A stretch of DNA of 34,225 bases. Origin: a virus. The notes beneath the pieces are model-generated. The model had not been told where the DNA came from. It did no database searches and was given only the letters and a program-made list of their open reading frames with translations. Below are positions 4,424 through 34,225 of the stretch, in pieces; positions within the stretch are counted from its first letter, which is position 1, and every line of letters begins with the position of its first letter. The stretch is taken from positions 1 to 34,225 of the IMG/VR virus record IMGVR_UViG_3300044632_000978; one strand, written 5' to 3'. A program made the translations under genes and the position numbers.

Positions 4424-4846
4424 ATGATCCTCGACAGGCAAAACCAGCTCTGCGCTGGGCAAGCCATCACTGGCACCGATGGCTATTCGACGGACGCAAT
4501 CGACCTCGGCGCTGCGGTGAACATCAGCCGCGGCAAGGAGAAGCGGCTGTTCGTGAAGGTGGACGGCACCGCGTTCGCAGGCGGCACCTCGCTGGAGGTG
4601 CAGTATGTGCAGTCGTCCAACGCGAACCTGTCCTCGCATGATGTGCTGGCGACGACCGGCGCGATCCTGACGGCCGCACTGACGGCGAATGCAACCCTGA
4701 TGGACCTGCCGCTGCCGTCCAACACCAAGCGCTATGTCGGGCTTCGGTTCGACGTGACCGGCACCATGACGCAGGGCACGGTCTCGGGCTGGATCGTGGA
4801 CACGACCGACACCGGCACGCTCTACGAGGGCTACACCGGGCGGTAA
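4424..4846 (+). CDS. Bbp16-like capsid cement protein
   Basis: A 140-residue, mostly beta protein starting MILDRQNQLCAGQAITGT and carrying STDAIDLG, both typical of the Bbp16 capsid-cement family. These proteins bind the outside of the mature shell and stabilise it. The ribosome site is AAGGAAGG, and the gene lies 33 bases after the major capsid gene, the usual partner. The C-terminus (VSGWIVDTTDTGTLYEGYTG) is compact. It is followed by a hairpin terminator, so the highly expressed capsid pair is probably closed off here. Confidence 0.87.
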   Translation: MILDRQNQLCAGQAITGTDGYSTDAIDLGAAVNISRGKEKRLFVKVDGTAFAGGTSLEVQYVQSSNANLSSHDVLATTGAILTAALTANATLMDLPLPSNTKRYVGLRFDVTGTMTQGTVSGWIVDTTDTGTLYEGYTGR

Positions 4847-26024: not shown

Positions 26025-26118
26025 CCTTTAACAGCCCGGTCGCAACCCATTGATTCGCAATGCTGCGCAAAATGGATAGGTTTAGACGGTAAGCCGCTGA
26101 AAATGGCTGCGAGGGAGT

Positions 26119-26158
26119 AGCTTGGAAGGCTGCTGCACTACCATTGTGCTATACCCGC
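26119..26158 (-). other. Attachment site attP: 5' half of tRNA-Gly(UCC)
   Basis: Read on the - strand, 26158 to 26119 gives the first 40 bases of a tRNA-Gly: acceptor arm GCGGGTA, a D-arm GCAC/GTGC around AATGGTA, and the anticodon loop CTTCCAA followed by GCT. The T-arm and 3' acceptor strand are absent, so this is not a functional tRNA. It overlaps the last 10 bases of the integrase gene, including its stop. Such tRNA fragments next to an integrase mark the recombination core. Three CGCAA words at 26041, 26056 and 26066 could be arm sites, but this is speculative. Confidence 0.78.
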
Positions 26159-27213
26159 GATTTAACAGGCTGTTTAGCATCTGCGAGCCGCGCGCCTATC
26201 TGAACCACCGTCGCGGCCTGGTCAACATAGACGCGGCGGATGGTGGCCACCTTCGCGGCACCCCAGCCCAGAATGCCTGCAATCTCCACATCCGTCAGCC
26301 CGGCAAGGCATAGCTCGGTCGCAAACGTGCCCCGGCAATCGTGAAGGTGCTTTGGCGGCAGCTTCAGCCGGTCGCGTTCGCGGGCGATGGCATGGGTCAA
26401 CCCGCTCTCGGTCCACGGCCTGCCATGCTCGTTCCGCAGGATGGGGCCTGTTGCGTTCTCTGGCCGGATGGATGCCAGCAGCTTCCGCAGCTCGGGCAGC
26501 ATGGGCACGGTCGCCACAACCTCGCCCTGCCCCTTCGCAGGCTGCCACACGATCGCGTTGACCCCGACCGCCTCCCAGGTAACGCGGCAAAGGTCGCCCC
26601 GCCTCATGCCGGTGAGACAGGCGAACTTGAAGGCAATTCTTACAGGTTCGGCCGCCCCTTCCCACGCCTCGCGTTCGTGGGCTTCCCAGATGATATGCGC
26701 CCTGCCGCCGCCCTTGTAGAGCTGGCGGATGCCGGCCGCCGGGTTCGCCTTCAGGTGCCCGCGTTCCACCGCCCAGGACAGGAAGGCGGACAGCACCTGC
26801 ATGGCATAGTCCGCCCCGCGCGGGGACGCCGCCAGGGTGTCCCGCCAGTCTATGATCTTGGCGCGCATGGCCGGGTTCTGGAAGACGGCAAACGGGGCCT
26901 TGCCCCACTTCGTTTCAATGGCTGCCAGCTTGTATCCCCACTGCATCCGGGTGCTGGCGGCCATGGCCTTCCACTGGGGGGTGGCGCGCCACTTCGCGGC
27001 CATGTCCGCCACCGTGTCCGGCTTGGCGAGGCTGCGACCGGCGCGGGCCTCTGCCAGGCGCTGAAGCGCGGCGTCGTCGATCACCGGACGCGGGCCGCCG
27101 ACCTGTTTCAGAATGCAGGGGCCGCCTCTCCAGGCATAGACATAGTGAAGGACCGGCTTTCCCGGCCTCTTGATCGAGACCCGATAGAGCCCCTTCACAG
27201 ACGATCCTGCCAT
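26149..27213 (-). CDS. Tyrosine integrase
   Basis: A 354-residue site-specific recombinase for integration and excision. Catalytic residues are visible: R204 in LTGMRRGDL, H291 and R294 in HLHDCRGTFAT, W317 in the GILGWG segment at the place of the third His/Trp, and the nucleophile Y329 in RRVYVDQ. The N-terminal part (KGLYRVSIKRPGKPVLHYVY) and a SAM-like core-binding region (about 65-160) precede the catalytic domain. The gene is the last of the leftward operon, and its end overlaps the tRNA-Gly core. It overlaps the small upstream gene by 19 bases, suggesting translation coupling. Confidence 0.93.
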   Translation of the reverse strand: MAGSSVKGLYRVSIKRPGKPVLHYVYAWRGGPCILKQVGGPRPVIDDAALQRLAEARAGRSLAKPDTVADMAAKWRATPQWKAMAASTRMQWGYKLAAIETKWGKAPFAVFQNPAMRAKIIDWRDTLAASPRGADYAMQVLSAFLSWAVERGHLKANPAAGIRQLYKGGGRAHIIWEAHEREAWEGAAEPVRIAFKFACLTGMRRGDLCRVTWEAVGVNAIVWQPAKGQGEVVATVPMLPELRKLLASIRPENATGPILRNEHGRPWTESGLTHAIARERDRLKLPPKHLHDCRGTFATELCLAGLTDVEIAGILGWGAAKVATIRRVYVDQAATVVQIGARLADAKQPVKSRV

Positions 27214-33624: not shown

Positions 33625-34225
33625 TGCGCCACCTCGATTGCAGGCTTGCCGTCCAGCACCCGATGCAGCGCAGACCGGGCATCATCGTTGTTCAGGAAGA
33701 ACAGCGCGCTCGCCTCGGCCCCCAGAAGGATGTTGCCTGCCGCCAGCGTCTTCTTGTCCGGACCGACCTTCTTCTCAAGCTCGGCCTCAAGCTCGTATCC
33801 GCCGGGCGCCAGGTGGACGGCCCAGCCCGCGATGCAGTGCGACGTGCCGCAGTGCCACTCGAACATGTTGAGCGCATCGGGAGAGGCCGTTGCCGCCTCG
33901 GCGACCGCGCGCAGGAGGGCGGCGGCTTCCTCGGGCGCGGCGATGGGCTTGCCGGCGACCTCACGCAGCTGGGGAGCGTGGAAGCGTTTGCCGGCGTGGA
34001 TGTCGAGCCCGCCTCCGACGCTGGTCAGCACCGGCAGGTGCGCACCCTCGGCGCTGATGTCGAGCCAGCCTCCGACGCTGGTCAGCACCGGCAGCTGCGC
34101 ACCCTCGGCGCTGATGTAGAGCCCGCCTCCGACGCTGGTCAGCACCGGCAGCTGCGCACCCTCGGCGCTGATGTCGAGCCAGCCTCCGACGCTGGTCAGC
34201 ACCGGCAGCTGCGCACCCTCGGCGC
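33621..34225 (-). CDS. Repeat-solenoid protein with Cys/His C-terminal domain (partial at N-terminus)
   Basis: The frame runs to the window edge, so the N-terminus is missing. The visible part starts with 19-residue repeats (LTSVGGWLDISAEGAQLPV), at least three complete and a fourth degenerate, resembling a leucine-rich or beta-solenoid repeat. The C-terminal 130 residues (from about HAPQLREVAGKPIA) carry WHCGTSHCIAGWAVHLAPGG and LLGAEASALFFLNNDDAR, a recurrent domain in phage proteins of unknown function. It is the first visible gene of the leftward operon, immediately before the recombination genes. No enzymatic motif recognised. Confidence 0.82.
   Translation of the reverse strand, partial: AEGAQLPVLTSVGGWLDISAEGAQLPVLTSVGGGLYISAEGAQLPVLTSVGGWLDISAEGAHLPVLTSVGGGLDIHAGKRFHAPQLREVAGKPIAAPEEAAALLRAVAEAATASPDALNMFEWHCGTSHCIAGWAVHLAPGGYELEAELEKKVGPDKKTLAAGNILLGAEASALFFLNNDDARSALHRVLDGKPAIEVAQ
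33996..34225 (-). repeat. 57-bp tandem repeats in the solenoid gene
   Basis: Near-identical 57-bp units begin at 34021, 34078, 34135 and 34192 (plus-strand CTGGTCAGCACCGGCAG at each start) and continue past the window end; a diverged unit lies just before 34021. The high DNA identity suggests recent expansion and likely copy-number variation. Confidence 0.88.

Follow-up and report, generated by a model that had tools for sequence, protein, structure and literature searches.

Attachment core and integrase end

When a phage integrates through the 5' half of a tRNA gene, what becomes of the promoter of that gene? The question is raised by the DNA analysed here, a stretch of 34,225 nucleotides (hereafter, the window) that forms an IMG/VR record of a podovirus whose portal is BPP-1-like. 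The portal gene has relatives in phages of the BPP-1 or Salmonella 66FD kind, and searching these for att information on the window yielded none. At positions 33961-34225, repeated protein segments (GGWLDISAEGAQLPVLTSV) extend past the end of the record.

The segment 26158..26119 on the minus strand, GCGGGTATAGCACAATGGTAGTGCAGCAGCCTTCCAAGCT, represents bases 1-40 of tRNA-Gly(UCC) and comprises the acceptor 5' strand, the D-arm and the anticodon arm. Compared with the 5' half of the sphingomonad tRNA-Gly(UCC) gene, all 40 of 40 bases are identical, and the identity extends no further than base 40, immediately 3' of the anticodon loop. A chance origin of this exact match is excluded. An earlier note on this DNA had proposed that the attP core (26119..26158, minus strand) holds the 5' half of the tRNA gene rather than the usual 3' half, and had made the proposal depend on a host gene identical to the 40-base stretch; sphingomonad genomes provide such a gene, and bases 1-40 are all that the phage shares with it. 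When extended by the 3' half of any of six host or attL copies, the 40-mer was recognised by ARAGORN as a complete standard tRNA-Gly(tcc). A whole tRNA gene was not found in the window, whose record may be incomplete.

The core is entered by a tyrosine integrase gene of 354 codons (26149..27213, minus strand; PF00589, phrog_1), the product of which matches Pfam PF00589 with 5.5e-11 and 43 bits (cut-off 27.1), as expected for a phage tyrosine integrase. The reading frame, running from 27213 to 26149, ends with TCG CGG GTA TAG, so that its last codons and stop lie within the tRNA half. The TAG (26149..26151, minus strand) coincides with tRNA bases 8-10, in agreement with the overlap described earlier, and the same overlap occurs in two relatives. 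The nearest of all, L002 (90% identical), terminates with ...AAAACGCGGGTATAG precisely at its contig end. In L136, which encodes a far more distant integrase, the same kind of end is found on another tRNA-Gly.

Integration geometry in related prophages

Among the genomes searched, we found neither a lysogen of the window phage nor a host that could be assigned to it with certainty, and turned to the relatives of the phage. The exact 40-mer is present in 13 IMG/VR stretches and in one phage record. Two of these stretches (L010 and L014) are the ends of a single 42.8-kb contig containing both prophage junctions: at one end, host flanking sequence is followed by the 5' half and phage DNA, and at the other, the integrase gene is followed by 17 bp and a whole tRNA-Gly. 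The tRNA-Gly(CCC) 5' half is duplicated in Sphingomonas sp. R-74633 (G004), where the two copies share a strand and are separated by 40.8 kb. The attR junction of this prophage consists of the native promoter (TTGACC...GTGGCA) and the 5' half, which runs into phage DNA, and its attL of the integrase gene and the 5' half joined to the host 3' half, forming an intact tRNA-Gly. The rejoined host site maps back to the R-74633 genome as two pieces whose overlap is exactly the 40-nt core, and aligns without interruption across the junction to the related genome G1032 (query 44-356, 87% identity). The lysogens of relatives thus contain the tRNA gene in the form that had been deduced from the geometry of the window, as integrase end, phage 5' half and host 3' half. 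They also bear out that the rebuilt gene is severed from its own promoter, which remains some 40 kb away at the other junction. The layout in G004 and in the L010/L014 contig is that of the 5'-restoring islands catalogued in Islander.

In these relatives, the exchange that the integrase makes between phage and host DNA falls within the tRNA-Gly anticodon arm, and the window integrase would be expected to act likewise in tRNA-Gly(UCC). At attL, the phage would then give the 5' half and everything upstream of it (the integrase gene, its arm sites and, for most relatives, also a promoter sequence), with the host giving the 3' half. In the relatives, the far phage end at attR is faced by the native promoter together with the displaced 5' half, an arrangement that the window phage would presumably also form on integration. 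Of 397 family genomes, 370 contain the 5' half of tRNA-Gly(UCC) and only eight of these contain it twice, so that a single copy of the target is the rule. Among the genomes sampled, an integrase of the window's group is also present in four of these eight (G036, G222, G262 and G371).

The 40-mer is also found in a phage with a different integrase, which contains the arm-binding domain PF13356 (L004, around 4425-4464). Here the integrase gene lies across the core from its place in the window, and integration would leave the displaced host tRNA promoter pointing towards that gene.

A clade of integrases facing the 5' end of tRNA-Gly

We gathered integrase relatives from genomes and viral contigs and sorted them by the tRNA adjoining the integrase gene. 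Scanning the genome contigs with a single integrase protein returned no relative, and an alignment-based scan did return relatives. The window integrase belongs to a sphingomonad clade; in the classifiable members of this clade, a tRNA-Gly (UCC or CCC) directly follows the integrase gene. In all classifiable strong matches to the integrase profile, the tRNA-Gly lies on the integrase strand with its 5' end facing the integrase (5'-type). With two exceptions, the weak matches are 3'-type, with the tRNA convergent with the integrase gene or the 3' half carried, and their targets comprise nine kinds of tRNA (Gly, Trp, Lys, Met, Arg, Leu, Phe, Gln and Pro). The exceptions, L135 and L136, are weak matches on long branches that are nevertheless 5'-type. 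The window and 29 5'-type rows form a group in a quick integrase tree (SH-aLRT 94), within which the window has L028, L088 and L002 as neighbours. From the same tRNA-Gly genes, related Rhizobium and Mesorhizobium phages have taken the 3' half, so a single integrase family has switched orientation at one and the same target. At least two changes from 3' to 5' are needed on this tree, the long branches of L135 and L136 making their number unsure.

Several loci depart from the common pattern. Next to the integrase of L135/L150 (G472 contig 78), which lies outside the main clade, we read by eye an apparent 5' half of tRNA-Thr(UGU) on the integrase strand; use of a 5' half would thus not be confined to tRNA-Gly. 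In G403 (L136 and L147, contigs 23 and 10), an integrase gene runs into a tRNA-Gly and has its stop inside it, and an uninterrupted native tRNA-Gly(UCC) is present as well; the assembly is perhaps a mix of lysogen and empty site. A clade integrase gene adjoins a tRNA-Gly(UCC) without 5' part and without promoter block in L146 (G346 contig 162, 36000-55900) and also in L079. G346 yielded no further exact match to the UCC 3' half; L146 may reflect decay of the element, a gap in the assembly or something akin to tRNA-dependent lysogeny.

Host-type promoter sequences in the integrase tail

We compared the DNA preceding native and rebuilt tRNA-Gly genes. Native upstream regions, including many without a prophage, frequently contain TTGAC-N15-GTGGCA 14-22 nt before the gene. 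In most of the clade, this sequence is found about 75-97 nt before the rebuilt tRNA, mostly within the last ~35 integrase codons. At 10 or more of 11 matching positions, it is present in 26 of 32 5'-type and 0 of 16 3'-type loci, and in 21 of 39 native upstream regions, where dinucleotide shuffles lead one to expect 0.15, 0.02 and 0.15, respectively. Of the 5'-type tails, 30 of 34 reached p<=0.01 with a two-block profile trained on 38 native upstreams alone, as did 1 of 21 3'-type tails, and scores of at least 13 bits were obtained for 30 of 33 tails compared with 0 of 207 other integrase windows on either strand. The relatives mostly fit the form of the alphaproteobacterial housekeeping promoter, with TTGaCgS and GCtANAWC-like blocks a defined distance apart (PMC8144410), to which the window conforms weakly. 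The GTGGCA form is missing in about half of the native upstreams and is therefore not the sole promoter type. Among carriers of the 40-mer with other integrases, five of eight contain TTG-N18-GCTA (0.01 expected), a form shared by two native upstreams and resembling the Caulobacter RpoD consensus (PMC8144410). No promoter match was obtained for L088 and L136, and a weak one only for L081 (p 0.07).

In most cases, the blocks coincide with the codons TAY GTT GAC ... GTG GCA, which surround the catalytic tyrosine, and codon choice there is strongly skewed. GTT is used at 23 of 28 block valines (background 0.19, p 1e-12) and GCA at 18 of 22 block alanines (background 0.15, p 4e-12), counted over integrases in 18 clusters at 60% identity. 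In four elements (L023, L025, L082 and L027), the integrase gene lacks the blocks, which follow its stop codon 76-86 nt from the tRNA. In L094, the integrase gene is frameshifted and the promoter blocks persist. The presence of a host-like promoter sequence in integrase tails, outside the integrase gene and in elements with a decayed integrase makes it probable that the rebuilt tRNA in most of the clade has its own, phage-borne promoter.

A conserved CTAAGTnnTTGA immediately 5' of the tRNA was also considered as a promoter and rejected: it fits an IHF site (12 of 33 compared with 0.17 expected), and the 3'-half phage L018 has a comparable sequence next to its core, which counts against a promoter role.

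Attachment arms and a weak promoter match in the window

In the window itself, a -35-like TTGACCA (26219..26225, minus strand) within the codons TAT GTT GAC CA of the catalytic tyrosine region has the same position as the promoter of related phages. The GTGGCA -10 block is absent from the window, and a weak -10-like GTTCAGAT (26198..26205, minus strand) stands in its place; together with the -35, it scores 7.6 bits (shuffle p 0.05). Codons 326-339, which span both blocks, differ from those of L002 at 1 of 14 positions, compared with 41% of codons overall, and only 1.5% of 14-codon stretches are as conserved between the two. This conservation is suggestive, no more, of promoter blocks that have been kept.

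Probable integrase arm sites, TGCTAAAC-AGCC-TGTTAAAT, adjoin the tRNA start (26160..26179, minus strand). The arm sites of relatives are pairs of TG[TC]AAAAC, and the window lacks the exact TGYAAAMC form. The distal attP arm holds an IHF-consensus site, AATCAATGGGTTG (26043..26055, minus strand), which is the sole occurrence of WATCAANNNNTTR, or the strict IHF consensus, in the window (0.11 expected). In the distal arms of five relatives (L008, L010, L015, L057 and L068), a common TTTCTGCGGGTTTC stretch followed by TGCAAAAC-like repeats is located 10-25 nt past the core. The integrase gene of the window appears to have extended into the tRNA, leaving the arm sites next to it, and to have retained the -35 in a promoter region 39-67 nt upstream of the tRNA with a degenerate -10. 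This promoter may be weak, or helped by transcription of the integrase gene.

Source of the rebuilt tRNA

We consider it likely that the window contains an anticodon-centred attP core in the less common orientation, and that its clade brings a host-type replacement promoter. Sequence identity over bases 1-40 and the splitting of relatives' lysogens at the same core place the window among anticodon-centred tRNA-targeting elements. Integration would displace the native promoter, and it is because of this displacement that clade members would bring a replacement matching the host tRNA-Gly promoter TTGAC-N15-GTGGCA. The tRNA would be processed out of a short leader transcript; the sequence evidence for the promoter is strong, and transcription is its predicted outcome. 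That elements taking the 5' half bring a promoter appears to be the simplest reading. For the window, the missing GTGGCA and a best promoter match at shuffle p 0.05 count against it.

Alternatively, there may be no dedicated promoter, and the rebuilt tRNA may be read through from the integrase promoter, as in archaeal pTN3-like elements. The overlap of the window integrase gene with the tRNA and the weak -10 fit this scenario, which we nonetheless regard as unlikely: the host-type sequence is found in most 5'-type and in no 3'-type relatives, codon choice favours it, and it also occurs outside the integrase gene and where that gene has decayed. A host-type sequence on the phage side in most of the clade makes a dedicated promoter likelier than read-through. 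The earlier note had held that the tRNA would depend on transcription from the phage side. The phage side does lie upstream of the tRNA, but dependence in the sense of a liability or of read-through is not supported, a host-type promoter being predicted there in most of the clade.

The TTGAC...GTGGCA block could instead be an att-site element, bound by Int, Xis or IHF, that looks like a promoter. Its neighbours are paired arm sites and a site resembling that of IHF, and its distance from the core is nearly constant; att architecture could be the cause of this constancy, and the conserved block codons could serve Int or Xis binding. We find this improbable, since the same blocks with the same spacing precede many prophage-free host tRNA-Gly genes by 14-22 nt, the profile was trained only there, and 3'-type relatives contain arm-like repeats yet no such block. 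That the 40-mer is a passive tRNA remnant without a working attP is scarcely credible, even though no lysogen of exactly this phage was seen, given that Int abuts it, that the other arm holds an IHF consensus and that relatives of the same layout have integrated precisely at the 40-mer.

Capture of the 5' half should carry a cost, as a usually single-copy tRNA gene loses its promoter, and the clade suggests a remedy, a host-promoter look-alike written in the final integrase codons. The integrase tail would then hold overlapping coding and regulatory information, and the promoter signature may be useful for locating 5'-type elements and their hosts. Because the putative tail promoter adjoins arm and IHF-like sites, it is conceivable, if doubtful, that the phage not only maintains but controls host tRNA-Gly(UCC), with Int, Xis or IHF binding altering tRNA supply during excision. 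If true, such control would couple translation of host GGA codons to the state of the prophage.

Comparison with known systems

The window differs from the common class of tRNA-targeting phages in carrying the 5' half, and in relatives the native promoter lies at attR. Islander, in its account of tRNA-borne islands, lists 3919, of which 3760 have 3' fragments and 159 a 5' tDNA fragment that has been displaced (PMC4383910). As described there, the latter islands resemble the window's group in using the anticodon region, in restoring the 5' half from the element and in marking the far end with the displaced 5' fragment. They are a minority class whose promoters that account does not discuss, whereas here a whole integrase clade carries a host-type promoter sequence in the integrase tail. 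The cost of promoter loss may explain why 5' elements are rare (about 4% in the Islander figures).

Archaeal pTN3-like integrases, according to the passages that describe them, also use the 5' half of a tRNA gene, with expression said to come from the integrase promoter, and are seldom seen in bacteria (Cossu 2017; PMC8371274). They share with the window's group a tRNA rebuilt behind phage-side sequence. Integration splits the pTN3-like integrase gene; here, the stop codon lies within the core on the integrase side, the gene is whole in the attL of relatives, and a separate promoter is indicated by sequence. The dusA-targeting integrases likewise replace the 5' end of their target, with putative -35 and -10 elements upstream after integration (Farrugia 2015, PMC4482086). 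Their target is protein-coding, and the portion of that study dealing with these elements reports no promoter within the integrase gene. In tRNA-dependent lysogeny (Fionnbharth and others, PMC10865867), the lysogen similarly relies on a phage replacement for the targeted host tRNA, and the phage tRNA has its own promoter. That system answers a related problem differently, combining a core of ~10 bp with a whole phage-encoded tRNA; the window has a 40-nt core and no tRNA, and its half rebuilds the host gene. Also related by integrase are Rhizobium phage RHph_Y1_20 and Mesorhizobium phage vB_MseS-P1 (35-37% identity), which have the same targets, Gly UCC and Gly CCC, but carry the 3' half, convergent with the integrase gene and without the promoter block. 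Integration through a 5' half is an already known, rare class. What appears new, within the openly licensed literature, is its clade-wide use by sphingomonad phages together with a putative host-type promoter in the integrase end.
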